Notes under the pieces: generated by a model
The model's input: only the letters and a program-made list of their open reading frames with translations
Told to the model about the DNA's origin: nothing
The model's database searches: none
NCBI RefSeq assembly: GCF_000423125.1
Contig: NZ_AUHJ01000004.1
Location: 186,001 to 250,000 of the forward strand
DNA from: Haliea salexigens DSM 19537
Lineage (GTDB): Bacteria; Pseudomonadota; Gammaproteobacteria; Pseudomonadales; Halieaceae
Direction: 5' to 3'
DNA: 64,000 nucleotides
Position numbers and translations under genes: made by a program
Shown here: positions 4,896 through 61,221 of the stretch, piece after piece
Position numbering within the stretch: the stretch's first letter is position 1
How the letters are laid out: the number at the start of each line of letters is the position of its first letter

Positions 4896-4941
4896 TGTTT
4901 CATCACGTTATTCCGGTGGCAAAAAACGACGGGAGATCAGC

Positions 4942-22622: not shown

Positions 22623-22656
22623 TGGAGTGGTCCGAAAAAAGCAGGCAGGTCAGATG

Positions 22657-22870: not shown

Positions 22871-22886
22871 TGTAAGTATCCCCTGA

Positions 22887-37432: not shown

Positions 37433-38707
37433 CTAATTCACCTTCCCCTTGGATGACAGTCCTTCGCGGCAAAATCGCTCCCAATCGGCCATCAGGTTGC
37501 GGCGCTTTTCGATCAGCTCAGACCGGGCATAGGCGGCGCGGGTGGCATCGCTGTTGACGTGTGCCAAGGCGAGCTCGCAGACTTCTTCGGGGTATGAAGT
37601 GTGTTCCTGGGCCCAGGTACGGAACGTTGCCCTAAAGCCGTGCTGCGTGACCTGATGGCCCATATCCTTTAACACCTTTGTCAGGGTCGTGTTCGATAAC
37701 ATGTTGCCGGTCGGACTCACGAAAATCACCTCGGAATCATGGTCGCGGGAGAGTGATTTCAACAGATCTACCGCCTCGCGGCACAAAGGTACCTTATGGT
37801 CGCGACCACCTTTCATGCGCTCGCCCGGAATCACCCAGACCTTGGCTTTGAAGTCGATTTCGCTCCACATGGCGGCACGTATCTCGCTAGACCGGGCAGC
37901 GGTCAGAATAGCGAACCGCAGAGCCATTGCACCGGTGCTTTCCTTGGCAGCCAGTTCGCGCATGAATGGCGGAACCTCATCGACCGGCATGGCCGCCAAA
38001 TGCCTTACCTTTCTCACCTTGCCCGGCAGCGGCAGGGATAAGTCGAGATTGCCACGCCAGCGAGCTGGGTTGTCGCCAGTGCGGAGACCCTCTGCCCCTG
38101 CCATATCGAGGATGCGCTCGACTGTGGCTCTAACCCTGGTTGCGGTCTCAGTTTTGGTCTCCCAGATGGGAGATAACATTTTCATGATGTGCGCCCGCTC
38201 GATATCCGAGACCAACAGGTTACCCAATATCGGATAAGCGTAGGTTTCGAGGTGCGAGGTCAATTTCTGGACCTGTTTGGCAGTCTTGAACTCCTTGCCT
38301 TTCTTGACGATGAACCTGTCAGCCACAGTGTGGAAGGTGACTGCCTTGGCCTGTTCGGCGACCAAAGCCGAGGCGAGCGCCTTTCGCGTCACGCGTGGAT
38401 CAATGCCCTGCCTGATCTGTTCTTTGAGTTCCCGGGCCTTCTGACGTGCCACGGAAAGCGTTACTTCAGGATAGGGACCTAATCCCAGCTCAGGTATGTC
38501 TTTACCGATAGGGGTTTTCAGTATCCACGAGCGCGCAAACGTGGTGTTAGCGGACACGGGTGGAGCACAGTGCAGATAGAGCCCTCCAACGCCACCGACG
38601 GCGTGCAGTTTGGTACAGGCCGCCCCCTTGTTGCTACCCGATTGGACCCTGGCCCATTTCAGGCGGCGGACTTCGGCATCGGTCAGCTCCCGCGCGAGTC
38701 TCGGCAT
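37433..38707 (-). CDS. Tyrosine-type integrase, P4/DUF4102 group
   Basis: 424 residues from ATG 38707 (GTG at 38716 also possible). N-terminal DUF4102 domain (about 1-100: GGLYLHC, ELGLGPYPEVTLSVARQKAR), central SAM-like core-binding domain, and catalytic domain with Arg in ILTAARSSEIRAAMWSEID, His-x-x-Arg in QHGFRATFRTWAQ, His in ALAHVNSD and Tyr in RAAYARSEL. Such integrases insert genomic islands, often into tRNA genes. It stands at the right edge of the metal island and is transcribed leftward. It looks complete. Confidence 0.93.
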   Translation of the reverse strand: MPRLARELTDAEVRRLKWARVQSGSNKGAACTKLHAVGGVGGLYLHCAPPVSANTTFARSWILKTPIGKDIPELGLGPYPEVTLSVARQKARELKEQIRQGIDPRVTRKALASALVAEQAKAVTFHTVADRFIVKKGKEFKTAKQVQKLTSHLETYAYPILGNLLVSDIERAHIMKMLSPIWETKTETATRVRATVERILDMAGAEGLRTGDNPARWRGNLDLSLPLPGKVRKVRHLAAMPVDEVPPFMRELAAKESTGAMALRFAILTAARSSEIRAAMWSEIDFKAKVWVIPGERMKGGRDHKVPLCREAVDLLKSLSRDHDSEVIFVSPTGNMLSNTTLTKVLKDMGHQVTQHGFRATFRTWAQEHTSYPEEVCELALAHVNSDATRAAYARSELIEKRRNLMADWERFCREGLSSKGKVN

Positions 38708-38716
38708 TGTCAACAC

Positions 38717-43570: not shown

Positions 43571-43942
43571 ATGATTGGATATATCACCATCGGCGTAAAC
43601 GACATGGTCAAAGCCAAGGACTTCTATGGAGACCTGCTGGCCGACCTGGGCGCCACGATGACCATGGATATGGATCGCATTGCCTTTTTCGGCACCGGAA
43701 CGGATCAGCCCATGCTGGCCGTCTGCGTCCCCTTCAATGGTGATGCCCCGGACCCCGGAAACGGCAACATGTTTGCGATCAATGGCGGCACCAAGGAAAC
43801 CGTTGACGCGCTCTATCACAAGGCGATTGCATTGGGCGCCAGCTGCGACGGCGAGCCGGGGCAACGTATACCTGACATGTTCTACGGCGCCTACGTGCGT
43901 GACCCGGATGGCAACAAGATCGCTTTCTACGTCTTCGGATGA
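43571..43942 (+). CDS. VOC-family (glyoxalase-like) protein
   Basis: 123 residues from ATG 43571, with AAGGAGA 5 bases or so upstream. Two beta-alpha-beta-beta-beta units: MIGYITIGVNDMVKAKDFYG and the terminal GAYVRDPDGNKIAFYVFG are typical of the VOC superfamily. Metal-dependent isomerase, lyase or binding roles occur in the family. Substrate unknown. A 17-base-pair hairpin follows at once. Confidence 0.9.
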   Translation: MIGYITIGVNDMVKAKDFYGDLLADLGATMTMDMDRIAFFGTGTDQPMLAVCVPFNGDAPDPGNGNMFAINGGTKETVDALYHKAIALGASCDGEPGQRIPDMFYGAYVRDPDGNKIAFYVFG

Positions 43943-44048: not shown

Positions 44049-46289
44049 ATGTACGCACGCAAGCCCATCACGCTGCTGGTCGCAGCATACCTGTCTGCCG
44101 GCAGCGCCAGCCTCATGGCACAGGGCCTCGAGGAAGTGGTCGTCACCGCGCAGAAGCGCGAACAGACGCTGCAGGACGCCCCCATTTCGATTGCCGCCTT
44201 CAATGCTGACCAGCTCGAGCAGAAGGGCGTGAACACCATCGACGACCTCGGCACCTCGGTACCCAACGTCAAGATCACCCGCTCGCCATCCAACACATCG
44301 GCCGCCACCATCGCCATTCGCGGTTCTGCCACTATCAACCCGGCCATTACCTGGGAGCCCACCGTCGGCATCTACCTCGACGGCGTGTTCATCGGCAAGA
44401 ACGTGGGTGGCATTTTTGACATCGCCGAATTGGAGCGCGTGGAAATGTTGCGTGGCCCACAGGGCACACTGTACGGCAAGAACACTGTGGGCGGCGCCGT
44501 CAACCTGATAACCACCAAGCCCAGCGGGGAGTTCAGCGGCAAGCTGCGCGCCGGTGTCGGCAACTATTCACTGGGCACTGTTTACGGCAGCCTGGATCTT
44601 CCAGCGTTCGACCTCGGTGGCGCCGGGCAAGTCATGGCCAAGGTGACCGGTTCATACCGCGAGCGTGACGGCCTGTACGACAACGTCGCCGACCCCTTCG
44701 GCAACCCACTCGCAAACCCGATGCTGATCGATGAACTCAACAACATCGACAACACCGTGGGGCGCTACGATATTCTCTGGGAAGCGAGCGACCGCCTAGA
44801 ACTGCGCTACACGTGGGACTACAGCGATCTGGACCTGGCTCCCTCCAAGAACCAGCTCACCTACCTGGACCCCAACGATCCGGCGAGCGTGAACGCGTTG
44901 CTGGCGCCGTATGTCACCGGCGAAAATGAAAACCGCGACAGCGTAAGCCTCGACCAGGCCAAGTTTGAGCGTTCAAAGTCGATTTCGCGGTCTCTGTTTG
45001 CCGATTATGATGCGGGCAGCTGGGGCGCGCTGGGAGACGTCACGCTGCGCTACATCGGCAACGATCGTTCACTGGACTGGGACGACGACATCGATATCGA
45101 CGGTTCACCGGTCAACCTGTTCACCTCAGCGCGCTTCATCGACTACGATCAGGCGTCTCATGAGGTGCAGATGATTGGCACCACCGACCGCACCAACTAC
45201 GTATTCGGCCTGTATTACTTCGAGGAAGAAGCCGCGGTGTACAACCCGATCAGCTTCTTCGGTGCCTTCGGCTCTCCCACCTCACAGAACCGCTACGGCT
45301 TCGACAACGACTCGATTGCGGTATTCGGCCAGGTTGAGTGGCGCCCGGCAGCGGATATCTTCCAGGACCGCCTGACCCTGACCCTGGGTGCGCGCTGGAC
45401 GGAAGAAACCAAAGACACCTACATCGATCACCCGAATGACGTCGATGCACAGGGCAACCCTGCTCCGTTCTCTGGCCGGGCCAAGAAGAGCTTCGATAAC
45501 GTGTCGCCCACCTTCGTCGCCGCCTGGGACGCCAGCGACAACGTGAACATCTACGGCAAGATCGCCAACGGCTGGAAAGCCGGCGGCTTCAACGGTGAAG
45601 CGCCGTTCGAAGCGGCTTTCACCACGCCGTATGATGCAGAAGAAATTCTCTCCTACGAGGTCGGTATCAAGTCGCGCTGGAACGACAACCGTCTGCAGGT
45701 CAACGGAGCCTACTTCTACAACGAGTCGACCGACATGCAGATGTCGATTTTCGTTGCCGGCAGCAGCGCCGCCTCCATTGTGCAGAACGCGGGTGAAGCG
45801 ACCATCCAGGGCTTCGAGGTGGAACTGGTTGCCCTGCCAATTCCAGAGCTGGAACTCGCGGCCAGCTATGGCTACCTCGATACCACCTACAACGAGTTCA
45901 TCGAGAACGGTGTGGACGTGAAGGACCAGAAGGACTTCCCCTACGCACCACGCAACAGCGCCAGCCTGTCGGCGGAGTACACCGTCGCCACTGGCAGTTG
46001 GGGTGACCTCACAGCACGCCTTGACTACGAGTTCGTTGACCGCCACGTGCCCTACATCGAGCCCAGCCAGAACGCCACGTCTGAGGTTCGCCCCTACGGC
46101 TTGCTGAATGGTCGCGTCACTCTGGCCAACGTGCCGGTGGGTGACGGCCAGGCGCTGAAGTTCGCCCTCTGGGGCAAGAACCTGGCGGACAAGGAATACC
46201 GCATCAACACCATCCCGTTCGGGCTCTGGACCGCCAGCTACTTTGGTGACCCGCGCACCTACGGCGTCGAAGCCACCTACGAGTTCTAG
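44049..46289 (+). CDS. TonB-dependent outer-membrane receptor
   Basis: 746 residues from ATG 44049 (an open frame upstream runs inside the VOC gene in another frame). Sec signal to AQG, TonB box LEEVVVTAQKREQTLQDAPI, plug (LGTSVPNVKITRSPSNTSAA; ERVEMLRGPQGTLYGKNTVG) and barrel with terminal Phe (YGVEATYEF). Receptors with this plug type in marine and sphingomonad bacteria import iron chelates or organic substrates. It leads the plus-strand catabolic run. A terminator-like hairpin follows. Confidence 0.93.
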   Translation: MYARKPITLLVAAYLSAGSASLMAQGLEEVVVTAQKREQTLQDAPISIAAFNADQLEQKGVNTIDDLGTSVPNVKITRSPSNTSAATIAIRGSATINPAITWEPTVGIYLDGVFIGKNVGGIFDIAELERVEMLRGPQGTLYGKNTVGGAVNLITTKPSGEFSGKLRAGVGNYSLGTVYGSLDLPAFDLGGAGQVMAKVTGSYRERDGLYDNVADPFGNPLANPMLIDELNNIDNTVGRYDILWEASDRLELRYTWDYSDLDLAPSKNQLTYLDPNDPASVNALLAPYVTGENENRDSVSLDQAKFERSKSISRSLFADYDAGSWGALGDVTLRYIGNDRSLDWDDDIDIDGSPVNLFTSARFIDYDQASHEVQMIGTTDRTNYVFGLYYFEEEAAVYNPISFFGAFGSPTSQNRYGFDNDSIAVFGQVEWRPAADIFQDRLTLTLGARWTEETKDTYIDHPNDVDAQGNPAPFSGRAKKSFDNVSPTFVAAWDASDNVNIYGKIANGWKAGGFNGEAPFEAAFTTPYDAEEILSYEVGIKSRWNDNRLQVNGAYFYNESTDMQMSIFVAGSSAASIVQNAGEATIQGFEVELVALPIPELELAASYGYLDTTYNEFIENGVDVKDQKDFPYAPRNSASLSAEYTVATGSWGDLTARLDYEFVDRHVPYIEPSQNATSEVRPYGLLNGRVTLANVPVGDGQALKFALWGKNLADKEYRINTIPFGLWTASYFGDPRTYGVEATYEF

Positions 46290-46302
46290 AACTCGCACTT
46301 GC

Positions 46303-46333
46303 CAATGGCGCCTGCGGGCGCCATTGTTCTTTG
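46303..46333 (+). terminator. Terminator-like hairpin after the TonB receptor
   Basis: Ten-base stem CAATGGCGCC/GGCGCCATTG around TGCG, then TTCTTTG. It lies 13 bases after the receptor stop and may partly separate receptor and enzyme expression. Confidence 0.75.
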
Positions 46334-46373
46334 TAGCACAGAGAAAATAACGAGACTGCTCAAGGAGCCACAC

Positions 46374-46919
46374 ATGACCCCGGATATGGAACAACAGCTA
46401 CAGGCGCTGCTGGACAAGCAGGCCATCATGGAGCTGATCAACGCCTACTGCAACGCGGCGGATCGCCACGACAACGAGAAATTCCGCTCGCTGTATCACG
46501 AGGATGCAATCGACGACCACGGCTCGTTTTTCAAGGGCCTGGCCATGGAGTTCATCGATACCCTGCCGGACATCCAGGCCAACATGGAAATCCTGCACCA
46601 CAACGTCACTACTGTGAACATCAAACTCGACGGGGACCGTGCGGAGGGTGAGGTGTACATACTCGCCTTCCACAAGATCAGCACTGACGAGGGGCCGCTG
46701 GATCTGCTGATCGGCGGACGCTACTTTGACAAGTACGAAAAGCGCAACGGTGTCTGGAAATTCACCTACCGCGCGGTGGATGCGGATTGGGCGCACCTGC
46801 ACCAGCCTTCGCTGGTGAACCTGAAGAACCCGATCATCGACGGCGCCCACATCGGGCAACCCGGTCGCAAGGACCCTTCCTATTCCATTTTCGAACTGTT
46901 GCAGTGGGGCAAACGCTAG
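46374..46919 (+). CDS. SnoaL-like (NTF2 fold) protein
   Basis: 181 residues. The opening DKQAIMELINAYCNAADRHD and RSLYHEDAIDDHG are the standard SnoaL_4 pattern; GGRYFDKYEKRNGVWKFTYR is the final beta sheet. NTF2-fold enzymes include steroid isomerases and dehydratases and hydroxylating subunits. A possible catalytic His/Asp pair is visible but the reaction is unknown. AAGGAG precedes the ATG. It is followed by a thioesterase 31 bases later. Confidence 0.88.
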   Translation: MTPDMEQQLQALLDKQAIMELINAYCNAADRHDNEKFRSLYHEDAIDDHGSFFKGLAMEFIDTLPDIQANMEILHHNVTTVNIKLDGDRAEGEVYILAFHKISTDEGPLDLLIGGRYFDKYEKRNGVWKFTYRAVDADWAHLHQPSLVNLKNPIIDGAHIGQPGRKDPSYSIFELLQWGKR

Positions 46920-46950
46920 CCTCACGCAGGCACTATTGATAAGGACACAC

Positions 46951-47373
46951 ATGACTAAAGCCGACAAGCTGAAAAATGCCAACGCGCATATCCCGCCCTG
47001 CTTGCAGGTGCTGAACGGGCAGTTGCTGGACTTTGACGAAGCTGAAGGGACTGCGGAAATGCAGTTTGATGTCAGCGAACAGTTCTGCCATTCAATCAAC
47101 GTCGTGCAGGGTGGCAATGTTACCGTGATGCTGGATGCCGCCATGTCACATGCGCTGTTCATGCAGCAGGCAGACGTTGCCGCGCTGCCCACGCTGGAGC
47201 TCAAGGTCAGTTTTCTGGAGCCCACGCTGGCGGGCAGGATTATTGCCCGGGGCAAGGTTGTGAAATGCGGCAAGAGCATTTCCTTTCTGGAGGGCTCGCT
47301 GATAAACCCGGCCGGCCAACTGGCCGCCGTTGCCTCCGCCACGGCGAAAGTTGTGCGCCACAAGAGGGACTGA
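46951..47373 (+). CDS. PaaI-family hotdog thioesterase
   Basis: 140 residues from ATG 46951. Hotdog fold with the active-site helix VVQGGNVTVMLDAAMSHAL and strands LELKVSFLEPTLAGRIIARG. It should hydrolyse an acyl-CoA; the acyl group is unknown. Its stop is 2 bases before the next ATG, so it is tightly coupled to the PQQ enzyme gene. Confidence 0.88.
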   Translation: MTKADKLKNANAHIPPCLQVLNGQLLDFDEAEGTAEMQFDVSEQFCHSINVVQGGNVTVMLDAAMSHALFMQQADVAALPTLELKVSFLEPTLAGRIIARGKVVKCGKSISFLEGSLINPAGQLAAVASATAKVVRHKRD

Positions 47374-47375
47374 CC

Positions 47376-49505
47376 ATGTCGACCCGACGCTCACTCGGTT
47401 TTGCCGCTGCCTTCGGCGCAGCCTGTTTACCCGCACTGGCACAGGACGCGGTGGAATGGCGCAGCTACGGCGGCGATGCGGGAAACACCCACTATTCCAG
47501 TCTTGAGCACATTAATCGCGATAACGTAGGGGAACTCACGCTGGCCTGGCGCTATGCCAGTGCTGCTGGCGCGCCGTTGCCACACAGTTCCGAGCTGCAG
47601 GTCAATCCGATTGTGGTAGACGGTGTGCTCTACGGTCGCAACCCGCTCTACAACGTGTTTGCCATTGATGCGGCCACCGGGCGCGAACGCTGGACCTTCA
47701 CACCTGGCGAGGAACATGCGGGCATGTCGAACATGCGCGGGGTTACGTTCTGGCAGGATGGCGACGACCGGCGCATCCTGTTCACCACAGGGCATTTCCT
47801 GATGGCGCTGGATGCCAGTAACGGCAAGTTGATTCCCGGCTTTGGCGCACAGGGCCGAGTGGATTTGCGCGAGGGCCTGGGGCGCAAGCCGGAGCAGGTG
47901 AGTATCAACGCCCCCTCCCCCGGCGTGATTTTCGACAACCTGATCATCATGGGTTCGGCGGTGACCGAGACCGCGGGCTCCGCGCCGGGTGATATACGCG
48001 CCTACGACGTGCGCTCAGGCAAGCTTGTCTGGTCCTTTCGCACTATTCCCGCGGCCGGCGAGTTTGGCGCCGACACCTGGCCGGAGGGCGCGCGTGAAAC
48101 CAGCGGCGGCGCCAATGCCTGGGCCGGCATGAGCGTGGACGCTGCGCGCGGCGTCGTCTATGTGCCAACCGGCTCCCCCGCCCCCGATTTTGACGGCTCT
48201 GCCCGCGCCGGCGACAACCTGTTCGGCAACACGCTGCTGGCGCTGGACGCTCGCACCGGCAAGCGCCTTTGGCACTTCCAGACTGTGCATCACGACCTCT
48301 GGGACCGCGACCTGAGCTCCGCACCCACTCTGGTGACCGTGACTGAAGACGGTAAATCGCGCGATCTGGTTGCCCAGGCCGCCAAGGAAGGCGTGGTCTA
48401 CCTGTTCGACCGCGACAGCGGTGAACCGGTGTTTCCCATAGAGGAAGTTGCCGTTCCCAAATCGGACATTCCCGGGGTTTACAGCGCAGCAACGCAGCCG
48501 CGCGTCACTCTGCCGGAACCCTTCGCACGCCAACACATGACCGTCGATGACCTCACGGACCTGTCACCGGAAGCCAATGCGGCGGCACGCAAGGTGTGGG
48601 ACGAGGCACACGAACTTGCCTACCTGCGCCCCGCAGGCCTGCGCAAAACCCTCTTGCTGCCGGGATTCTACGGGGGCGCCAACTGGGGTGGCGGTGCGTT
48701 TGACCCGGAAACCAACCTCTACTACATCAACGCCACCAATGCCCCGAATATCCTGCAAATGGAAGCGGTGGAGGTGGCCCGCGGGTCCACCATGGGTGTT
48801 GGCGCGTTCCTGTTTCGCCAGCAATGCGCCGGCTGTCACGGCGTGGACCTCCAGGGTTTCTATCCTTACGCACCAGCACTTACCGGGGTTGAACAGCGCA
48901 TATCGCGCCGGGAAGCGCTGGACGTGGTAGCGGCTGGCAAGGGCCGCATGATGCCGTTCGGGCATCTGTCGCGCCACGAGCGAGATGCCGTGGTGGACTA
49001 CCTGTTTGCGCTCAGCGCCGGTGAACTGAAACCCGCCGTTGACGACGACGCTACCGAGAAGGAAACGGTGCACGTATTTGCCGGTTACCGCGACTTCGTC
49101 GATGCCGAATACTACCCTGCGATCAAGCCACCGTGGGGCACCTTGACTGCCATCGACTTTGTGTCCGGCAAGATCCGCTGGCAAATACCGCTCGGAGAAT
49201 ACGCGGCACTGACGGAGCGGGGTATCGCTCCAACAGGTACGCGCAACTTCGGCGGGCCGGTGGTCACGGCGGGGGGGCTGCTGATTATCGCCGCGACCTC
49301 GGACGAAAAGCTGCGTATCTTCGACAAACGCGATGGCCGTCTGCTGTGGGACTATAAATTACCGGCCGGAGGTTATGCCACGCCCGCCACCTACGCCATC
49401 GACGGCCGACAATACATTGTCATTACCGCCAGCGGCGGCAAACTGGGCACGCCCACCGGTGATGAGTACCTCGCCTTTGCCCTGCCTGAGCCAACGGCTG
49501 ACTGA
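47376..49505 (+). CDS. PQQ-dependent dehydrogenase with cytochrome c domain
   Basis: 709 residues with a Sec signal (RSLGFAAAFGAACLPALAQD). Quinoprotein beta-propeller: WRSYGGDAGNTHYSSLEHIN, AIDAATGRERWTF, LDARTGKRLWHFQTVHHDLW and PIVTAGG-like GGPVVTAGGLLIIAATSDEK. A cytochrome c domain is inserted at about 475-550 with haem motif CAGCH (about 484-488) and Met in GRMMPFGHL. It oxidises an alcohol or aldehyde in the periplasm and passes electrons to the respiratory chain. The substrate is not evident. Confidence 0.92.
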   Translation: MSTRRSLGFAAAFGAACLPALAQDAVEWRSYGGDAGNTHYSSLEHINRDNVGELTLAWRYASAAGAPLPHSSELQVNPIVVDGVLYGRNPLYNVFAIDAATGRERWTFTPGEEHAGMSNMRGVTFWQDGDDRRILFTTGHFLMALDASNGKLIPGFGAQGRVDLREGLGRKPEQVSINAPSPGVIFDNLIIMGSAVTETAGSAPGDIRAYDVRSGKLVWSFRTIPAAGEFGADTWPEGARETSGGANAWAGMSVDAARGVVYVPTGSPAPDFDGSARAGDNLFGNTLLALDARTGKRLWHFQTVHHDLWDRDLSSAPTLVTVTEDGKSRDLVAQAAKEGVVYLFDRDSGEPVFPIEEVAVPKSDIPGVYSAATQPRVTLPEPFARQHMTVDDLTDLSPEANAAARKVWDEAHELAYLRPAGLRKTLLLPGFYGGANWGGGAFDPETNLYYINATNAPNILQMEAVEVARGSTMGVGAFLFRQQCAGCHGVDLQGFYPYAPALTGVEQRISRREALDVVAAGKGRMMPFGHLSRHERDAVVDYLFALSAGELKPAVDDDATEKETVHVFAGYRDFVDAEYYPAIKPPWGTLTAIDFVSGKIRWQIPLGEYAALTERGIAPTGTRNFGGPVVTAGGLLIIAATSDEKLRIFDKRDGRLLWDYKLPAGGYATPATYAIDGRQYIVITASGGKLGTPTGDEYLAFALPEPTAD

Positions 49506-49583
49506 GGCGCGACTGCAAAGCGGCGGTTGTCTTGTGTGGGAGCGAGTGCGACTATCGTGCTTCGTTCGCAACGAGAGCCGCCC

Positions 49584-50672
49584 ATGACCGTCATCAGCGA
49601 ATTCCAGGTCAACCGCGACAATTTTCGCGAGACCCACCTTGCACAGTACGAGAGCCCCGCACTGACGAACGACCAGTTGTTGGTGCGTATCGACCAGTTC
49701 GCGCTGACATCCAACAACGTCAGCTATGCGGCCAGTGGGGACATGATTGGCTACTGGCAATACTATCCGGCACCGGCACCCTGGGGAAACGTCCCGGCCT
49801 GGGGCAGTGGCACCGTGCTGGAGTCGGCGCATCCGGACATACCGGTGGGCGAGCGGATCTGGGGCTTCTTCCCGATGGCCAGCCACACCCTGCTGACGGC
49901 AGGCCGGATTCGGCACGATCAACTCACGGATGTCGCCGCGCATCGACAGGCGTTGCCAGGGCTGTACAACAACTTCCGCCGTATGACTGCCGAAGCCGAC
50001 TTTCTGCAGGCCATGGAGAATCAGCGCAGCCTGCTGTTCCCCCTGTTTTCAACGGCTTTTGTGCTCTGCGACTACCTGCAGGACAACGCCTGGTTTCAGT
50101 CCCGCCAGATCATTATTGGCTCCGCCTCTTCCAAAACCGCTTACGGACTCGCCTGGCTACTGCACCAACGTGACGACGCCCCGCCCGTCGTGGGCCTGAC
50201 ATCCTCCGGGAACAGCGAATTTGTCCGCACGCTGGGTTGTTACGATCAGGTGCTTAACTATGGCGCAGAAGCGGATATTGAAAAGCAGGCCAGCGTCTAT
50301 GTCGACATGTCGGGAGACGCTGGTGTCATCAGCGCGGTGCACCGCGGCCTCGGCTCGCAGCTGAGGGCCAGCGTCAGTGTCGGTCTCACGCACTGGGATG
50401 CGCCGGCCAACAAAGAAACGCTCCCAGGCCCCAAGCCAGAGTTCTTTTTCGCCCCCGCCCAGATCGCCAAGCGCGAGCAGGAGTGGGGGCACGGCGTTAT
50501 CATGGCGCGAGCAACCCGGGCCAGTGCCGAGATCGCCAACGCGACTGCACAATACACTGTGATTGAACACCAGCACGGTACCAGTGCCCTGCATACAGCC
50601 TGGCTGGAACTTCTCGATAACCGCGCACCTGCCCAGCGCGGATTGCTGCTGTCACTGGCTGAAAGGGCGTAA
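49584..50672 (+). CDS. DUF2855-family protein
   Basis: 362 residues from ATG 49584, just after AGAGCCGCCC. DUF2855 proteins look like degenerate medium-chain reductases: LAQYESPALTNDQLLVRIDQ, SNNVSYAASGDMIGYW, IIIGSASSKTAYGLAWLL (nucleotide-binding-like turn). Often found in steroid or fatty acid catabolic clusters. Last plus-strand gene of the run; it meets the minus-strand operon 10 bases later. Confidence 0.88.
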   Translation: MTVISEFQVNRDNFRETHLAQYESPALTNDQLLVRIDQFALTSNNVSYAASGDMIGYWQYYPAPAPWGNVPAWGSGTVLESAHPDIPVGERIWGFFPMASHTLLTAGRIRHDQLTDVAAHRQALPGLYNNFRRMTAEADFLQAMENQRSLLFPLFSTAFVLCDYLQDNAWFQSRQIIIGSASSKTAYGLAWLLHQRDDAPPVVGLTSSGNSEFVRTLGCYDQVLNYGAEADIEKQASVYVDMSGDAGVISAVHRGLGSQLRASVSVGLTHWDAPANKETLPGPKPEFFFAPAQIAKREQEWGHGVIMARATRASAEIANATAQYTVIEHQHGTSALHTAWLELLDNRAPAQRGLLLSLAERA

Positions 50673-50675
50673 ATC

Positions 50676-50692
50676 GCAGGCTTCAAGCCTGC
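50676..50692. terminator. Hairpin between convergent operons
   Basis: GCAGGCTT-C-AAGCCTGC, a nearly perfect palindrome at the junction of the DUF2855 gene and the SnoaL-like gene, partly inside the latter's last codons. It can act on both strands. No T-run. Confidence 0.5.
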
Positions 50693-51144
50693 CAGTGTTC
50701 CGGGCCGGGGCCCAGCACGGCAAAGGAACCGATATGGCCACGGTTGTGCTTGCAGCGGTGGCGCAACAGCCAGCACCCATCAACCAATTGCCATTCGTCG
50801 TGGTAATCGCCCAGGGTGCAGAAGGTCTGTCCCTCGCTCGCACCGCTGCCCAGGTGCATGTCACTCACATAGGCGCGGCTGCTGGCGCGGTCACCCTTAA
50901 CATCGATCAGCACGTTGCCCAGCAGGTGTTGGGTTGGGCCGCAGGCATCCAGAAATGAACGCAACAACGCGACGATCGCCTCTGCCCCCTGCAGCTCACC
51001 GGTACCCAGGTCTGCTGTCACATTGGGCATGAAAAGGCCCTTGAGGCCGTCCCAGTCGCGGCTATCCATGCCTCGCGCCACCGCAACCAGGTTGCGGTAA
51101 ATTGCGCGCTCAGCAAGCAGTGTCGTGAGCGTCGGCTCGCTCAT
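50683..51144 (-). CDS. SnoaL-like (NTF2 fold) protein, second copy
   Basis: 153 residues. LLAERAIYRNLVAVARGMDS and DWDGLKGLFMPNVTADLGTG fit SnoaL-like domains; LVDGCWLLRHRCKHNRGHIG is the closing strand. Different from the copy at 46374. Its start overlaps the SDR stop by 4 bases (ATGA), so it is the last gene of the minus-strand operon. Ketosteroid isomerases share this fold, but the reaction is unknown. Confidence 0.87.
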   Translation of the reverse strand: MSEPTLTTLLAERAIYRNLVAVARGMDSRDWDGLKGLFMPNVTADLGTGELQGAEAIVALLRSFLDACGPTQHLLGNVLIDVKGDRASSRAYVSDMHLGSGASEGQTFCTLGDYHDEWQLVDGCWLLRHRCKHNRGHIGSFAVLGPGPEHWQA

Positions 51145-51953
51145 GGCTTTTCCCCACGCGGCAACAGCACGGCGCGTATGTTATCAGCCATCTGACGCAG
51201 GGCATCGCGACGCGGCATGCCGAGCAGCGCATCAAACATGGCTTTGTTCTGCTCCCCGGCAATATACAGCGGGCCATTAGCCAGGTTCAGCAGCGCGAGT
51301 TCGGCAACTTCCCGGGGCGACATCATGCCCTCCAGCGTCGCGGGATCAATGCCCTGCAGTGCATGCGCCTCGGTATCGGTGCTCCCGGGGCACAGGGCAA
51401 GCACGTCGATACCCGCAGGCTGCAGCTCGCCCCAGAGCGATTCCCCCAGGCTGTTGGTGAAGGCCTTGCTCGCGGCATAGGCGGCAGAGAACGGAATGCC
51501 CATAAGGCCTTCCACGGAACTGGTAAGAATCACTCCGCCTCTGCCCCGTTCCAGCAGTGCCGGCAGGAAGCAATGGGTGAGCTGCATGGGCGCCGCGCAA
51601 TTGACCTGCAGCAGTGCCGCCATGCGCTCCGGTTCGTTGTTCTGGTGCGGCCCCTTGAGCCCGAAGCCCGCATTGCTGACCAACAGGCCGATGTCCACGC
51701 CCTGCGCCGCTTTCGCGATTGCATCCACCGCAGCGGGATCGGCCAGGTCCGCCGCGCACACCGTCACCTTGACGTTGTGCGCAGCAGTCAATTCGCCAGC
51801 CAGGTCGTGTAGCCGGTCGGCCCGCCGTGCAACCAGCAACAGGTCAAAGCCTGCCTCGGCCAAAAGCCTGGCGAAGGCAGCGCCAATTCCGGAGGACGCG
51901 CCGGTGACCAGGGCCGCGGGGCCGTAGCGGTCGAGAAAGTCTGTTGTATTCAT
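51141..51953 (-). CDS. Short-chain dehydrogenase/reductase
   Basis: 270 residues. Rossmann motif TGASSGIGAAFARLLAEAGF, NNAG variant VSNAGFGLKG, catalytic Ser in ILTSSVEGL and Tyr/Lys in YAASKAF. It probably uses NAD(P) on a hydroxyl or keto group. It overlaps the SnoaL gene (4 bases) and is 59 bases downstream of the Rieske gene. Hydroxysteroid dehydrogenase activity is plausible by context only. Confidence 0.9.
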   Translation of the reverse strand: MNTTDFLDRYGPAALVTGASSGIGAAFARLLAEAGFDLLLVARRADRLHDLAGELTAAHNVKVTVCAADLADPAAVDAIAKAAQGVDIGLLVSNAGFGLKGPHQNNEPERMAALLQVNCAAPMQLTHCFLPALLERGRGGVILTSSVEGLMGIPFSAAYAASKAFTNSLGESLWGELQPAGIDVLALCPGSTDTEAHALQGIDPATLEGMMSPREVAELALLNLANGPLYIAGEQNKAMFDALLGMPRRDALRQMADNIRAVLLPRGEKP

Positions 51954-52012
51954 GCACGGTACTCCATAAGGTTGATCGCGACACTGTTGCGACTACAGCG
52001 TGCAACCGTCGA

Positions 52013-53074
52013 TCATGGCTGAGCGGCACCATTGCGCGGCAGGTAGAACTGCTCGTACCAGCGGCGCAACTTGTTAATCGGACCATCGCCATCACAGAGT
52101 ATCGGGTCGGCCCGGTACACCTTGTCTTTCCAGATTTCCACATCCTGGCCGAACGCGGCGTGTGCCCCTATGGCGTATTGCTCGGCAAATTCTTCGGGCA
52201 CAGCTTCCCCGTCCAGCCCACTGACGATAACCGCGCTACACAGGTCCACTTCCTCGCTGTTGACCGGTGTATGGTAGTTCACCCACCAGCTGCGGTAGTC
52301 GACAGCGCCACCGCGGGACTCCGTGTAGTAGTACATGATGGACGGGCCGTGGTAGGTGGCATCGCCCCAGGCATCCGCAGGGTTGTCAACGTTAAGTGCC
52401 CGCATCGCCTCCATGTCGAACGGCAAGCCAGGCGGAATCACACTGCGTGCGGATGCAGTCTGCTGCACACGCGACACCTGGGTGACCGTGCGCTCGCCGA
52501 AACGATTCTCGAATTCGCGCACCTCGCCACCGTGTACATGCGGGAAGTGTGCAATGTCGACAATGTTTTCGATCACGTCGCAGGGCTGCGCACGAATACG
52601 CGAGCGGTGAAAACGCCAGTCGCCCCACCCTGCTTCACCGTGGCCCCACTCTTTGATGACGGGCAGGTAGTCCTCCGGCGCCCCACCTTCGGGATCGTGC
52701 CACAAGGCAATGAAGCCGTTGCGCTCCAGTACCGGCCAACCGCGCAGCGCATGGCGCGCCCGCTCCGGTATACGCGCAGCGTAGGGTATGTCGACACACT
52801 CGCCATCGGCGGCAAAGGTCCAGCCGTGGAAGGGACAGGCCAGCGCATCGCCAACGATCCTGCCGCCGTCGCTGGCCAGATGCGCACCCAGATGTGGACA
52901 ATGCGCATCCAGCACAGCCGCCACGCCGGACTCCCCGCGAAACAGCACCAGATCAACGCCGAAATAGTGCAGGCGCTGCACCGCGCCCGGCTCGAGTTCG
53001 CTGGAGAAGGCGACAATATGCCAACCGCGGGCAAAGCGCCCCGGCTCCAGAAATGCGTAGCGAGAATCACTCAT
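52013..53074 (-). CDS. Rieske non-haem iron oxygenase, terminal component (KshA-like)
   Basis: 353 residues. Rieske [2Fe-2S] motif in HCPHLGAHLASDGGRIVGD and ALACPFHGWTFAADG (C-x-H, C-x2-H). The catalytic iron site reads NIVDIAHFPHVHGGEV (Asn/Asp and two His). Overall like 3-ketosteroid 9-alpha-hydroxylase oxygenase (KshA) and cholesterol desaturase. It needs a reductase, which is not in this window. It overlaps the FAD dehydrogenase stop by 8 bases, so the two are coupled, and KstD plus KshA are the standard pair that opens steroid ring B. Confidence 0.9.
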   Translation of the reverse strand: MSDSRYAFLEPGRFARGWHIVAFSSELEPGAVQRLHYFGVDLVLFRGESGVAAVLDAHCPHLGAHLASDGGRIVGDALACPFHGWTFAADGECVDIPYAARIPERARHALRGWPVLERNGFIALWHDPEGGAPEDYLPVIKEWGHGEAGWGDWRFHRSRIRAQPCDVIENIVDIAHFPHVHGGEVREFENRFGERTVTQVSRVQQTASARSVIPPGLPFDMEAMRALNVDNPADAWGDATYHGPSIMYYYTESRGGAVDYRSWWVNYHTPVNSEEVDLCSAVIVSGLDGEAVPEEFAEQYAIGAHAAFGQDVEIWKDKVYRADPILCDGDGPINKLRRWYEQFYLPRNGAAQP

Positions 53075-54764
53075 CTGCAGGCTCCTGATCGGTCAGTGCG
53101 TGTTGCGCCGCCAGATAGGCAAAGGTCATGGCAGAGCCAATGGTGGCCCCTGCGCCCGGATAGGTATCACCCATGACCGCGGCACTGGTGTTCCCCGCGG
53201 CATAGAGCCCCGGAATGACGTCGCCAGACTCCTTCAACACGCGCGCGTGCTCATCGCAAAGCAGCCCACCTTTGGTATCCAGATCGCCGGCGTCACAACG
53301 CAGCGCATAGTAGGGCCCGGTTTCCAACGGGCCGAGACAGGGGTTGGGCTGTACTTTCGGGTCAGCATAGTAGCGGTCGTGCTCAGAGTCTCCGCGCCCA
53401 AAATCGGGGTCGCGTCCGGCACGGGCCTGCTCATTGAAGCGCTCGACGGTGGCGGCTAGGCCGGATGCATCAATATCCAGTGCCTCAGCAAGCCCCTGCA
53501 GGGAGTCTGCCCGGGTCAACAGCCCCGAGCTGAACAGTTCACCGGGGAGCTGGGAATCGCCCACCATTTTACCCGGCTTGATATGGCCTACCGGGTACTG
53601 CTGGCGAAAACGCGCGTCAAAAATCAGGTAGCAGGGTATAGCGCCCTCCCCGCGCGCTTCCGACGCGTACTGGTCTTTGACCACGTCTTCATACGGTTGT
53701 GCTTCGTTGGTAAAGCGCTGGCCTTTGCGATTCACCATGATGGAACCCGGATAGGCCTTGCCAGCGATCAGTGCCAGCACGCTGCCATCGGGCATACGGT
53801 AGCTCGGCGACCACCATGCGCTCTGCATGAACCCCAGCGCCGCACCCAGCGCTTGCCCCATGCGGATACCATCGCCGGTAGCCCCGGGCGCCGCAGCTGT
53901 CCAATCGGACCCAATCGGAGCCTGCTGGAAAGTTTGTCGCATGGTGGCGTTGTGGGCAAATCCGCCCATAGCCAGCAGCACCCCGCGCCGCGCGCGCACC
54001 CGCTGAGGCACGCCGTCTTTCACCACCACGGCACCGCTCACCCGACCATCCTCGAGCAGTAGTTCCTGCAGCGGTGCGTTCAGCCAGAGCGGGATGTCGC
54101 GATCCATCAACGAACGCCGCAAACGCGCCACCAGACCAGCGCCCAGCGTGACACGCTGATCACGCTTGCCACGCAGGCGCGCAGGAAGATCCAACCAGTA
54201 GCGTGCGTACAATCGGGCTCCCAACCAGATCGCTGCCGGGCCCATGGCACCCAGCTGACGCCCTTCCGTTACGGTAATATTACAACGCAGGATCGAGGAA
54301 TAATCATCCCGTATGCGCTCAGCTTCGGCTCCCAGCTCGCGCAGGGAAAAGGCGCCAGGGTCCATGGAGCGCCCACCGGACTTGTAGCCGGGTTGTGTGG
54401 GGTAGTAATCCATGTATTCCGGGAGCGGGGTAAACTCTACACGGCTGTGGCGCATCATGAACGCCAGCATCTCGCCCGCCCGCATGGCGAAGGCGCGCAA
54501 GCGCGCCGGGGAGACGCTTTCGCCGATCAGCGCATACAGATACTGCCAACCCTGTTCCGCGCTGTCATCGATTCCCAGTTCGGCTTGCCGATGGTTGCCC
54601 GGCAGCCACGCCACGCCACCGGACTTGCAGGTCGTGCCACCGTAGCGCGGTTCCTTTTCCACGACCAGAACACGGCCGCCCAACTGGTGTGCCGCTATTG
54701 CTCCGGTCATGCCCGCAGCACCGCTGCCGGCGACCAGCCAGTCAACCTCCTGATCGTATTGCAC
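53067..54764 (-). CDS. FAD-dependent 3-ketosteroid-1-dehydrogenase-like protein
   Basis: 565 residues. FAD motif DWLVAGSGAAGMTGAIAAHQ, then VEKEPRYGGTTCKSGGVAWL; the C-terminal VIPGLYAAGNTSAAVMGDTY, PGAGATIGSAMTFAYLAA is diagnostic of the KstD/fumarate-reductase group, closest in form to 3-oxosteroid 1-dehydrogenase. It would add a double bond to a 3-keto ring. It is followed by the Rieske oxygenase with an 8-base overlap. Related ene reductases in the family prevent certainty on substrate. Confidence 0.88.
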   Translation of the reverse strand: MQYDQEVDWLVAGSGAAGMTGAIAAHQLGGRVLVVEKEPRYGGTTCKSGGVAWLPGNHRQAELGIDDSAEQGWQYLYALIGESVSPARLRAFAMRAGEMLAFMMRHSRVEFTPLPEYMDYYPTQPGYKSGGRSMDPGAFSLRELGAEAERIRDDYSSILRCNITVTEGRQLGAMGPAAIWLGARLYARYWLDLPARLRGKRDQRVTLGAGLVARLRRSLMDRDIPLWLNAPLQELLLEDGRVSGAVVVKDGVPQRVRARRGVLLAMGGFAHNATMRQTFQQAPIGSDWTAAAPGATGDGIRMGQALGAALGFMQSAWWSPSYRMPDGSVLALIAGKAYPGSIMVNRKGQRFTNEAQPYEDVVKDQYASEARGEGAIPCYLIFDARFRQQYPVGHIKPGKMVGDSQLPGELFSSGLLTRADSLQGLAEALDIDASGLAATVERFNEQARAGRDPDFGRGDSEHDRYYADPKVQPNPCLGPLETGPYYALRCDAGDLDTKGGLLCDEHARVLKESGDVIPGLYAAGNTSAAVMGDTYPGAGATIGSAMTFAYLAAQHALTDQEPADE

Positions 54765-54911: not shown

Positions 54912-57900
54912 TTATCCGTCGCGTGCCAACCAGTCATCCACGAGTGTCAGCGCGCGCTCGTAATCGTAGGTGGCCAGTGCACGCTGCAGTGCCCGATAGC
55001 GGTCGTGCGCTGCGCTGCGCAGAAGAGACGCCTGGTCCTCCAGCACGGGCCGGGCAGATGCATCGTCGTCGGCCAACAGGGAACGCAGAGTCAGCAGCAC
55101 CGCGCTGACACTCGCCGCGGACTTCTTCGTGGAGGCACTGTCTTCTGCCTCCGCTGGCGCAAGCGGTAGCGCCTGCAGGGCTTCCAATAAAGGACGTAGC
55201 TGGCTCTCCACCGTCAGCAACGCAGCCTGTAGATCTCCCGAGCCCTGCAAATCCGGATGGGTGACCGACTCCAACTCCGCCGCCGCCTGAGCCAATTGCG
55301 CTGCACCCAGCGTGCCCGCCAGCCCCTTCAGCGAATGCGCGCGCATTTTCGCCTGTTGCCAGTCTTCTTCCTGCACCGCTGTGCCGTAGTCGTGGACGAA
55401 CTGTGCCTGATCTATCGCAAACCCGTGGAGGATACGCCCGTATAACCCTTCGTTGCCCTGCAGTCGGGCAAGCCCCGCCGCGACGTCAACCCCCGGCAGC
55501 TCGTGCACGGCGGAGGACAAATAGGCGCGCAACTCGCGGGGGCGCTCGGGGCCGGCGTCTACCTCATCCACTGGCCGCGCCGGCACAATCCAGCGCGCCA
55601 TGGTGGTCAGCATCAGTGCCACATCAAGCGGCTTGCCAATGTGGTCGTTCATGCCCGCGGCGAGCACCTGCTCGCGGTCCCCGGGCAGCACGTTGGCCGT
55701 CATGGCGATGACCGGCAGATCGGCAATGCGGGGGTTGGCGCGCAACCGACGCGTCGCCTCATACCCGTCCATGACCGGCATCTGGCAGTCCATCAACACC
55801 CCATCGAAACGTTGGGCCTCCAGTAGTTCCAGCGCCTCGCGACCATGGCCGGCAATCGTTACCTGTATGCCGTATCCTTCGAGCAACTCCCTCGCCACGT
55901 CCTGATTGACGAGATTGTCTTCAACCAACAGGACATGAGCTCCACGCAGGCTCGTGAGCGCCACCTGCATATCCCCGGCTACCGAGCTGGCCGTCCGTCC
56001 ATTCTGGCGCTGCCCCTCGACTGCCTGCATGATGGCATCGAACAGAGTCGATGGTGTCACCGGCTTGATCAGGAAAGACGCGATGGAGAGATTACCGGCT
56101 GCCTGCTCCACTTCCGCGGGGCTGAATGCCGACATCATCACCACGGGGGGCAGCTCTGCAATACTCCCATCGTCTTCGAGCTGTTGTACCAGGTCTGCAC
56201 CCGTTATCGCCCCCAGCTTCCAGTTTACCAGCAGGACCGTGTACGGGTTTTCCGGCGCGCTGCGTTGAAGCTCCTCCATTGCTGCCGTGCCATTCGCGGC
56301 ATATCCAAGCTGGAAGCCCAAAGCAGTCAGGTAGTTGCCGAGAATTTCCCGCGCACTGGCATTTTCGTCGACTACCAATACTCTGACGCGATGCTGGGGA
56401 GGCTCCAGGACAGCCGGCGCCTCCTGCACACCGCAGGGCAGCGTGAAGTGAAACACCGAACCTACCCCATATTCGCTTTCGACCCAGATATCCCCGCCCA
56501 TCATGTCCACCAGATTCTTGCAGATGGCCAGGCCGAGGCCGGTGCCTCCGTATTTACGGGTGGTGGAAGGGTCCGCCTGGCTGAAGGCCTGAAACAGCAT
56601 CGACTGCTGCTCCGCCGTCAACCCGATGCCGGTATCGGAGACACTGAAATGCAAAACGAAATGATCGTCGCTATGCTCCAGAACGTCCACAGCGGCGATG
56701 ACTTCACCACCCTCGTCCGTGAACTTGACCGCATTACTGCAGAGGTTGACCAGAATTTGCCCGAGACGCACCGGGTCGCCCAGTACAAGTCGGGGCAGCT
56801 CCGGCGACAGCCTGAACAGAAACTCGATGTGCTTTTCCGCAGCACGCATCCCCGTGGTATTGGCCAGGCGATCGAACACCTCTTCCAGTGAGAAGGCAAT
56901 CGTCTCGATGCTCAGCTTGCCAGCCTCAATCTTGGAGAAGTCGAGAATGTCGTTGATGATCGCCAGGAGTGTTGTGGCCGAAAGTTCAATTTTCTCGAGG
57001 TAATCGCGCTGTCGATCATCGAGTCGGGTACGCTGGACGAGATGTGTCATGCCCATGATGGCGTTCATGGGCGTGCGAATCTCGTGGGACATGTTTGCAA
57101 GGAAACTGGACTTGGCCGCTGTTGCTGCCTGCGCTTCGTCGCGCGCCGTTTCCAGCTCCTGGGTCAGCAGGCGTTCGACGTGGTGGTTGATGCGTACACC
57201 GGCGATACGTGTCATCCGTCCATTGTCGTCGCGCTCCACTACCTGACCCACGTCAAGAAACCAGCGCCACTCGCCATCGGCGCAAAGCTGCCGGTGTTCA
57301 CAGCGATAAAGGTCCATGCGCCCTTCGAGACAATCGCTTGCCACCTTGAGCGAGCGGGGCAGATCATCCGGGTGTGTCAGGCGCACTACGGTATCAAGGC
57401 CGTGTCGCAGGGGGGACCAGGTATCAGCGCTTTCACGTAATTCCAGCGGTTCGTACCGCATCAATCGGGTGAAGTTCACGTTGGTGATAAAGCGGTCGCC
57501 CTCCCTCAGGTACTCCCACAACCCCAGGTCGGCGGCCTCGGCGATCAGCAGCAGTCGCTGCTCACTTTCCTGCTGTTGTTGTTCGGCGCGCATGCGCGGT
57601 GTAATGTCGATCAACGTACCGACCAGGGTGTCGCTTGTGCCCCCATCCCCGTGTTCGGAACGTCCGGTCTCAAACAGGTAACGCACCTCACCGCGGCCGT
57701 CGATGATGCGGTACTCGAGTGCAAACGTGCGGTCCTCGGCAACGGCAGCAAGGATGGTGGAACTGACGTGTTCCACATCGTCGGGATGGATGATGCTGGC
57801 ATAGCTGCGCACCGCGTTGTTGATAAATTCACTCGCGGGATAACCCGTCAGGTCTTCCACAGCGTCGTTCATGTACAACATGGTCCAGTGCTCATCCGCA

Positions 57901-60900
57901 CGCGCGCGGTAAACGGTTCCCGGGATCGTTGAAACCAGCCTGCTGTACTCCTGGTCGCGCAGGGTAAGGGCTCGCTGCATGGCCTTGCGGTCGGTGATAT
58001 CGCGCAGTGATGAAATAATACGTAAACCCGTACCCTGCCCCATCGGGTTGAGACTGATCTCGACGGGAATAAGATGTCCGTCTCGGTGCGCTGCAAGCAG
58101 TTCGCGAGCGTTGCTGTTGCGAAGTGCGCCCGCGCGCGCAGCGTTGACAAAAGCGTCGCGCATGGCCACGTCCCCCTGGCGCTGATCCTCGGGCATGAGA
58201 ATTTCCACGCTTTCGCCGATCATTTCACCAGGGCGGTACCCAAACAGTTCCAATGCACGCCGGTTAACCAGCGTAATAAAACCGTCGGCGTCCGTTATCA
58301 CCAACGCATCCGGCGCCGATTCCAGCAGTGCCTCAAACTGCTGTTGCTTTTCCGCTTCCTGTCGCCGCGCCAACTCCAGTTCGGTCACATCAAAATTGAC
58401 ACCGGTCATGAACACGGATTTGCCCGTATCATCGCAGCGTACCTGGCCGCGGGCGTGCACATAGATAACACTGCCATCGGGATGTAGCAGACGGTAGTCC
58501 GCCTCCACAGGAGCGGCTGTTGTCACGCCGCGCTGCAGCGCTTGTAACAGCACCTCGCGGTCGTCCGGATGTACCAGAGACATATACCACTCGCCGTCTG
58601 GCTGGGCATCACCGGGGTCAATACCCAGCTCACGAAGGAATCTGTCTTCCCAATACCATTGGTCAGCGAGGATATCCCACTCCCAAATAGACGCCCGTGC
58701 AGCACGCAGGGAGTCGGTTCTATTCCGCTCCGCGTCATTCAACTCGGTCAGCAATCGACGCGTCTCAGTGACATCTTGCAGCAAGCCTACATAGTGACTG
58801 ATGCCACCTGCCGGGTCGGAGACCGGCGCGATGACCTGATCACACCAGATCAGGCGCCCTTCACGGGTAACATTGGCGATCTCGCGATGCCAGACTTCGC
58901 CCGCAGCAATGGTCCGCCAGAGGTCTTCATAGAAGGAGGGCTCCATCTCGCCACTCTTCAGCAGGCGCGGGGTCTGCCCGACCGCCTCTGCGGCTGGATA
59001 ACCAGTGAGCCGCGTAAACGCCGGATTGACATACTCGATACAGCCGTTGGTATCGGTGATGAGCACCGATACCGGACTTTGCTCTACCGCCGAACCAACG
59101 GCACGCATTTCCTCGCTCTGTTCGCGCAACTGACGCTGCAGGTAGCGGCGTCCGCGGTCGGAGAGCCGCAGCACGAAAGCCAGCATGCTGATAACCAGGA
59201 TGGTAATGGCCAGCGCCACCGCATACACCAGACGCTCCACCAGCCGGTGCTGCTGCAGCACTTCCGCAACGTCGATTTCAGTTGCCACACCCAAGTCCAG
59301 CAACGACGACCAGGCCCAGGCACCCATCACCGGCACACCTCTGTAGTCGCGATAGCCCTGGGTGTCGACTCCCTCCAGCCCGGAGCTGGCCTGGCCAGCC
59401 ATCCGGGTGAGTGGCCAGGTATCCCTCGGCGTCGCAGGCGATTCACCCTCGAGCAGGTTTACTCCGGGGTCCGTGAGCAGCGGGTAGCCGCGGGGCGAGC
59501 TGATCCCCGGATAACGCTCGCCAAGCCGGCGGAAGTCGGCGAAGAAGCGCGAGCCGCCAAGCACCTCTCCTCGGCGATTGAAAATGAAGCTTTCACCGGT
59601 CTTGCCCGCTCTCGCCGCGTGTAGCAGCGAATCCACTTCCGCGCGATTTCCCGATTCAATCAGCAGGAATGCCACGGTATTACCGTCGGCATCGGACACC
59701 GCTTGTAGCAGCGCCAGGTGGTGGTCATGTTCACTGACATCGTGGTCGATGGCCAGCAGCAAGTGACCGCTGCCAGCGGCAACTGAGTCAATATATTCCG
59801 CGATAGATTCCAGCGCATACAGCTTGCCAGGCTGGACACCCTCGCTACCGGTGATCACCTTTCCCCGGGGACTCAACAGGACGAAGTAGGGACTGTGGTT
59901 GTTGGAACGCGCCGAAATTAGTTGCTGCAGCGCTCGCGCCGAGACTTCTGGTTCACCAGGGGTCCCACTGCGAGCCAATGCCGCAACATGGCCCCGTACG
60001 TCGTCAGCGCGCAACAGCTCCAGCAGAAAGAGCACCTGTCGCTCAAACCACAATTCCAGCCCTGACTGCACCCCGCTGTTGATGGAGTTCAGGATGAGCG
60101 CCTGATTGGACCTCGCCTCCGACTCCAGACGATTCAAGGTGGCCTGCGCGGCGAGCACAGTAATACTCAGGAACAACAGAGCAACGGCATAGACGACAAC
60201 GCGAAAACGCACGCCCGAGAACAGCGTCAGCTGGCGCTGGGGACTGATACCACGCAACAGAAACAACAACGTGGCAACAACCAGAGCAACAATAACCGCA
60301 AGCCCTACAAGCACTTCCAGAGATTCGCCCATCAGGACCGAGCCCCCGCGGGCAGCAGGGCGCAACGTCTGGTCGGTGACTTGCCATCGCCCGAGTATCT
60401 CGGCGCGCTCGTGGCGGGAGATGGTATCCAGCGCCTTGCGCAGCAGTCGGTCAAGGGCCACCTGGTCCTTGCGCACTGCGAGCCGCAGCCGGGTCAGATC
60501 CGGATCGGGCAGACGATAATCGCCGGTGATCGCAAGTCGACCGAGCAAATTGGCGGTAATCTGTTGGTGTAGTACAGGATACACCCCTACAGTCGCATCT
60601 GCCTCGCCGAGGGCTACTGCCATCAGGGATTCTACCGTGCCATCGGCAATCACCAGCTCGATGTCCGGGTGCAATTCAGGCAACAGGCTCTCGGTGAAAA
60701 AACCGCGCGGCACAGCAACTCGCAGGGTACTCCCCGGCGGGAGTGAGGTTACCGGTGCATCGAGGTGGCTCGCGATGCCTACGGGCGCTGAGCCATAAGG
60801 AGGAGAAAACAGCATCGACTGCTCACGCCCTGGCGTGCGCACGGTGTTGAGCAGAACATCAATACTGCCATTCAACAGCCGGTCTTCGAGCTCCGACCAG

Positions 60901-61220: not shown

Positions 61221-61221
61221 C

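Follow-up and report, generated by a model that had tools for sequence, protein, structure and literature searches.

Why should a bacterium that already possesses several genes for 3-ketosteroid delta1-dehydrogenases (KstD) and KshA-family Rieske oxygenases carry one more such pair, set beside genes for an outer-membrane receptor and an exported dehydrogenase? The question is raised by positions 44049-54764 of the window, i.e. the whole stretch of 64,000 nt analysed here, which corresponds to C4:186001-250000 of the 4.26 Mb, 99.98% complete assembly of Haliea salexigens DSM 19537 (Halieaceae, OM60/NOR5; C denotes contigs of this genome and L the stretches that were read). The locus is real and conserved, and we regard it as an accessory set that is probably directed at steroids. 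The reading that we favor, with a probability of about 0.62, is that it encodes an accessory module which would import a polar steroid, oxidize its hydroxyls and pass the product on to the 9,10-seco pathway, the genes of which lie at other sites of the genome. It builds on gene content, intact residues, conservation and the observed linkage to the steroid core, and from these we infer all substrates and the order of the steps. Steroid degradation is not new to this bacterial group: steroid degraders, both predicted and isolated, are found among OM60 and Halieaceae members (PMC4810484, PMC5790920). It is the combination of genes that represents a new variant.

The KstD-KshA pair and the steroid core genes

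Judged by their sequences, the KstD and KshA of the window are clearly genuine members of their families, and every catalytic residue checked is intact. Over residues 7-557, KstD matches the 3-oxosteroid 1-dehydrogenase 7p18 with 456 bits in the PDB search and scores 281 bits against KstD1 of R. erythropolis; in the alignment to the latter, the active site retains its three tyrosines and its glycine (YMDYY, NEAQPYE, YPGAG). The Rieske protein matches the solved KshA 4qdc with 235 bits and contains the KshA_C domain PF19298 (190 bits, at a gathering score of 23.3), and its CxH/CxxH Rieske motif and 2-His-1-Asp iron ligands are intact (CPH59, CPFH80, VDIAHFPHVH172, FGQDVEIW308). The domain and PDB matches, together with these residues, bear out the labels KstD-like and KshA-like of the initial annotation, which had been made from the letters and the open reading frames (ORFs).

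A steroid role had been said to be endangered if the two enzymes fell into clades with other known substrates. In the KstD and KshA trees neither is found in a clade of known non-steroid substrate, and neither stands among the characterised steroid enzymes. The clade of the window KstD includes neither the core KstD nor AcmB. In the unrooted KshA tree, the window clade stands alone with support 100/100 and a stem of 1.06. A split with support 100/99 groups it with the KshAs of Rhodococcus, Tsukamurella, a Vibrio plasmid and the OM60 core, and excludes four other Haliea paralogues and three Planktothrix proteins; all included KshAs from 9,10-seco clusters are on the window side of the tree.

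Selected stretches of the window genome were read, in which genes were called by a simple codon-usage script in place of a published gene finder. The genome encodes at least four further proteins of the KstD superfamily and at least six further KshA-family Rieske proteins. One KstD, at C1:311797, is of the core type and approximately 43% identical to that of the window. An HsaA gene lies beside a KshA gene at C8:10.5-12.8 kb (297 bits to the solved HsaA), the HsaC gene at C4:34.6 kb (222 bits to PDB 2zi8/2zyq) is adjoined by ChsH2/thiolase aldolase genes, and a cluster with HsaD-like, HsaA-like and TesEFG-like genes is located at C1:383-388 kb. Because the steroid genes are dispersed elsewhere in the same genome, we regard the locus as an accessory set. 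Thus, of the original proposal, steroid or terpenoid catabolism is supported by these genomic enzymes and by the linkage to the core, but the classical ring-opening role is not supported, since other paralogues are better assigned to it and the locus is devoid of HsaABCD.

The possibility that the window pair represents the core steroid KstD and KshA was considered and rejected, as in small Halieaceae genomes it is a different KstD that is clustered with HsaA, HsaC and IpdAB-like genes. The complete steroid cluster of these genomes (L080-L082) comprises TesEFG-like, HsaD, HsaA, HsaC, FadD3-like, IpdAB-like, acyl-CoA and KstD genes, the names other than HsaA, HsaC, KstD, KshA and SnoaL_4 being assigned by sequence reading. 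Its KstD gene adjoins a SnoaL_4 gene, and KshA is also present in L081.

In a survey of 140 Halieaceae genomes, window-type KstD (at least 50% identity) was found in 40. Among these, core KstD is present in 39, HsaA in 37 and HsaC in 37, and among the 100 genomes without window-type KstD the corresponding numbers are 49, 52 and 53 (Fisher p of 5e-9, 2e-6 and 4e-6, respectively, a statistic partly confounded by genus and genome size). For HsaA and HsaC, p rises to 0.012 once the genus g21 is left out. The window-type KstD genomes without core genes are fragmented assemblies. Outside Halieaceae genomes with a steroid core the window pair is hardly ever found, a distribution that supports the steroid reading without proving it.

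Layout and conservation of the locus

Nine genes in two convergent runs had been described from the sequence, a layout confirmed by the ORF list, by the Pfam search and by the same order in relatives. The features are as follows:

43571-43942, plus strand: VOC/glyoxalase-family protein, possible first gene of the plus run (PF00903, 51 bits)
44049-46289, plus strand: TonB-dependent receptor of the outer membrane, candidate importer of the substrate (Pfam: Plug and barrel domains)
46374-46919, plus strand: SnoaL_4/NTF2-like protein 1 (SnoaL1), candidate steroid dehydratase or isomerase (PF13577, 79 bits)
46951-47373, plus strand: hot-dog (4HBT) thioesterase (PF03061, 33 bits; TIGR00369 above cut-off)
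47376-49505, plus strand: quinoprotein-type dehydrogenase with inserted cytochrome c domain, CAGCH (PF01011, 620 bits; Cytochrome_CBB3, 43 bits)
49584-50672, plus strand: DUF2855 protein, distant zinc-dehydrogenase-like oxidoreductase (PF11017, 325 bits; weak ADH_N_2)
50683-51144, minus strand: SnoaL_4 protein 2 (SnoaL2), candidate hydroxysteroid dehydratase (PF13577, 97 bits)
51141-51953, minus strand: short-chain dehydrogenase/reductase (SDR), candidate hydroxysteroid dehydrogenase (PF00106, 146 bits)
52013-53074, minus strand: KshA-family Rieske oxygenase (KshA_C PF19298, 190 bits)
53067-54764, minus strand: predicted KstD-family FAD 3-ketosteroid delta1-dehydrogenase (PDB 7p18, 456 bits)

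All nine genes are present at 44049-54764. The plus run extends from the TonB receptor over SnoaL1, the thioesterase and the propeller dehydrogenase to DUF2855; the minus run is transcribed in the order KstD, KshA, SDR, SnoaL2, and the gap between the converging runs measures 10 bases. The overlap of 8 bases between the KstD and KshA genes, already noticed in the initial annotation, is exact according to the coordinates (53067-53074, minus strand), and the end of the SDR gene overlaps the start of the SnoaL2 gene by 4 bases. Of 22 adjacent KstD-KshA pairs compared, 17 overlap (by 4 or 8 bases) and five are separated by gaps of 1-35 bases; a tight coupling of both genes is thus general in the family.

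The same gene set, which had been suggested as a search target, was found in seven other Haliea loci (L040-L046) and in L052, a locus of another genus. As far as the fetched stretches reach, the seven loci contain the same genes in the same order with 75-99% identity, the TonB receptor being 91-99% identical where covered and SnoaL1 95-98%. The nearest named relative is Haliea alexandrii LZ-16-2 (L040), the locus proteins of which are 90-99% identical to those of the window (KstD 94%, KshA 97%). The VOC-family gene is kept beside the TonB gene in at least two relatives (L040 and L044), and DUF2855, which was not called in L044-L046, is the least stable member. Synteny from TonB to KstD is maintained throughout Haliea, and one further genus has the complete locus as well, with identities of 75% for the TonB receptor, 83% for SnoaL1, 59% for the thioesterase and 74% for the quinoprotein, and 68% for SnoaL2, 71% for the SDR, 73% for KshA and 69% for KstD. 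Therefore, the arrangement in the window is not due to chance.

This synteny also bears on the idea that the convergent runs are unrelated neighbors, with a steroid operon (KstD-KshA-SDR-SnoaL) lying next to a TonB-SnoaL-thioesterase-quinoprotein operon of independent function. Most other Halieaceae genera indeed keep the KstD-KshA pair without the TonB/quinoprotein run, next to a CitMHS/TrkA-C permease, DUF3604, an SDR and a zinc alcohol dehydrogenase. However, the runs occur together in eight Haliea loci, as far as covered, and at approximately 70% identity in L052, and we consider their independence rather unlikely. At L027:9211-13951 (C4:85-90 kb) of the window genome, another KshA-family gene adjoins an apparent CitMHS/TrkA-C-type permease and a DUF3604 protein.

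Proposed steps and the evidence against them

According to the accessory-module reading, the TonB receptor would take up a polar or conjugated steroid, a hydroxyl of which could be oxidized in the periplasm by the exported quinohaemoprotein-type dehydrogenase, with electrons passing to cytochrome c. In the cytoplasm, the SDR may oxidize a second hydroxyl, and one or both SnoaL proteins may eliminate water at a hydroxyl or shift a double bond. KstD would then form the 1,4-diene-3-one and KshA would hydroxylate C9, upon which ring B should open, and the 9,10-seco product would be passed to HsaA, HsaC, HsaD and the side-chain enzymes encoded elsewhere in the genome. In marine Proteobacteria, steroid uptake and first oxidation are poorly defined, and the locus offers a compact, conserved candidate set in which a TonB receptor and an envelope dehydrogenase are tied to a KstD-KshA pair. 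If the proposal is true, it helps to explain the occurrence of several KstD and KshA paralogues per Halieaceae genome and points to new steroid-modifying enzymes. According to PMC12882949, it is not known how Proteobacteria take up bile salts, and TonB receptors are reported there to be induced by cholate in another proteobacterium.

The absence of ring-degradation genes from the locus, and quinoprotein and TonB genes that point to oxidation at the envelope, would also suit a tailoring or detoxification unit for host or algal steroids, which would alter them but not support growth. However, KstD and KshA together commit the steroid nucleus to spontaneous opening of ring B, and downstream steroid enzymes are encoded in the genome; such a unit is therefore very unlikely in our opinion.

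For the SnoaL proteins, isomerisation had been suggested initially. This is unproven, and residue conservation weakly points to a dehydratase. SnoaL1 shows weak PDB matches to LinA, a scytalone-dehydratase-like protein and BaiE (E 1e-4 to 2e-3), and the match of SnoaL2 to BaiE, a bile acid 7alpha-dehydratase, is marginal (E 0.45). In the latter weak match, residues D27, H73 and D95 of SnoaL2, which are invariant in Haliea, align with the catalytic acid/histidine residues Asp35, His83 and Asp106 of BaiE, and the position of BaiE Tyr30 is occupied by Val. AlphaFold models of the two proteins (6-7 close orthologues) were too poor to use, with a mean predicted local distance difference test score of 51.6 and 41.3. 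In Sphingobium Chol11, the 7alpha-hydroxysteroid dehydratase is Hsh2, which belongs to the NTF2-like superfamily (PMC12175502). Taken at their weak strength, these similarities suggest that dehydration by the SnoaL proteins is at least as likely as isomerisation.

The designation of the plus-run dehydrogenase as a haem-containing pyrroloquinoline quinone (PQQ) enzyme can be retained in part: the propeller and the CAGCH haem c motif (cytochrome domain at residues 476-543) are present, but PQQ as its cofactor appears doubtful. Its nearest PDB relatives are quinohaemoprotein alcohol dehydrogenases, and its domain content fits a PQQ enzyme with haem c. It scores below the NCBIfam cut-offs, and in the alignment to 1kv9 the Cys-Cys pair (a disulfide in 1kv9) is absent and a Ca-ligand Asn is replaced by Ser. 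PqqE is missing in eight of eight Haliea genomes, and in the same search, for which this family-wide result served as positive control, 16 other Halieaceae scored above the cut-off; a PqqC search matched no control genome and was uninformative. Because Haliea is without PqqE, the enzyme would need scavenged PQQ, and PQQ auxotrophy of Haliea is possible. Many Gram-negative bacteria use PQQ not of their own making (PMC12124388). The TonB receptor was tried as a PqqU PQQ importer and rejected (39.7 bits, the NF041535 cut-off being 1200), and no PqqU-type importer in the genome exceeds this cut-off (best score 60.6). In a literature search combining pyrroloquinoline quinone with steroid terms, PQQ was not mentioned among the matches listed. 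At least two PQQ-propeller dehydrogenases are encoded in the window genome, the second being located at L023:10160-12118.

Sulfatase-like genes occur in the loci of relatives. In five of the seven Haliea relatives KshA is separated from the SDR by a gene for an alkylsulfatase-like metallo-hydrolase (L041:12876-14201, with counterparts in L042-L045), and the tested copy contains Lactamase_B and Alkyl_sulf_dimr domains; the gene is absent from the window locus, where it was lost or never present. In L051, from another genus, the stretch between quinoprotein and KstD (2092-5044) encodes a metallo-beta-lactamase-fold protein and a type-I sulfatase, the latter divided over two ORFs. Because of these genes and because sterol sulfates occur in marine diatoms (PMC6356472), a sulfated steroid is a reasonable but weak guess for the substrate. 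That the locus is devoted to marine steroids of the sulfated or polyhydroxylated kind, e.g. algal sterol sulfates, which would be imported, oxidized in the periplasm by the quinoprotein with scavenged PQQ and then acted upon by a KstD-KshA pair of new substrate specificity, seems quite unlikely.

Several observations weigh against the accessory-module reading. The window KstD remains under the NCBIfam equivalog cut-off (PRK12844, 601 bits vs 789), and both enzymes form own long-stem clades in which no characterised enzyme is found. For the core pathway, the genome already has other paralogues of KstD and KshA, and neither HsaABCD nor side-chain nor KshB genes were found within the locus. Further, KstD and KshA relatives are also present in an apparent triterpenoid biosynthetic cluster of Planktothrix. 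The lack of PqqE and the partial confounding of the co-occurrence statistic have to be added. The deep clades, the redundancy with the core enzymes and the squalene-derived Planktothrix cluster would rather speak for degradation of a non-steroid polycyclic terpenoid (triterpenoid, hopanoid or diterpenoid), in which KstD and KshA act on an analogous ring and the products bypass HsaA and HsaC. However, nearly all genomes with the window pair also have the steroid core, and the 100/99 split places the window KshA on the 9,10-seco side of the unrooted tree, away from Planktothrix. We therefore regard a terpenoid substrate as unlikely.

Related clusters and neighboring genes

On plasmid 6 of Tsukamurella tyrosinosolvens NCTC13231, kstD is followed by an overlapping kshA (4 bases there), the enzymes are homologous and an NTF2-like gene is nearby; in contrast to the window, where they are elsewhere in the genome, hsaABCD and a reductase gene are located beside the pair, and the TonB/quinoprotein run is an addition of the window. 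The OM60 core cluster (L080-L082) is, like the window, from Halieaceae and has a KstD with an adjacent SnoaL_4 gene, but its KstD and KshA are only approximately 41% and 31% identical to those of the window, the module of which is extra. The plasmid of Sphingobium sp. TomMM7A encodes KstD (42%), KshA (36%), several SDRs, a SnoaL-type protein and a TonB receptor, but its gene order differs and neither quinoprotein nor DUF2855 is present within the stretch read. The delta4,6 bile-salt degradation of Sphingobium Chol11 and Caenibius tardaugens also includes KstD, KshA, SDR-type hydroxysteroid dehydrogenases, Hsh2 and TonB receptors implicated in uptake; a quinoprotein is not noted in the accessible parts of these sources (PMC12175502, PMC12882949), and the similarity of the window SnoaL proteins to BaiE, a relative of Hsh2, is marginal. 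Finally, quinohaemoprotein alcohol dehydrogenases such as 1kv9 share the PQQ beta-propeller, the catalytic Trp-Asp region and the haem c site with the window dehydrogenase, in which, unlike in 1kv9, the haem domain is inserted before the last propeller repeats.

KstD and KshA relatives were also met on two other plasmids. Plasmid p2 of Planktothrix agardhii No.2A (NZ_LR882940.1:36554-56194) contains in one run genes for squalene synthase, squalene-cyclase repeats, several P450s, an SDR, a KstD-like protein, three KshA-type Rieske proteins, a carbamoyltransferase and an emopamil-binding protein, and looks like a cyanobacterial triterpenoid biosynthetic cluster using KstD and KshA relatives. Plasmid pYa108 of Vibrio alfacsensis encodes KstD, KshA, a FadD3-type ligase, and meta-cleavage and beta-oxidation enzymes, and is probably a steroid catabolic plasmid in a marine Vibrio. 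In the window genome, the 20 kb contig C29 (L038) differs in codon usage and encodes an extradiol dioxygenase, an HsaD-like hydrolase, meta-cleavage enzymes, a CoA ligase and a TonB receptor; perhaps it is a plasmid or a foreign catabolic element.

Directly upstream of KstD, a gene for a hybrid sensor kinase of 2102 aa and a response regulator gene are located (54912-62277, minus strand). Kinase/response-regulator genes are present at this place in L040-L043 and absent next to KstD in L044-L046; they are possible candidates for regulators of the locus. On the other side, ORF reading of window positions 958-38716 revealed a multicopper oxidase, a copper-type P-ATPase, two CusA-like RND systems and cation-diffusion transporters, along with insertion-sequence-type transposases (21771-23690), an integrase (37433-38716) and a lower GC content in parts. 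This region looks like a metal-resistance island adjoining the locus.

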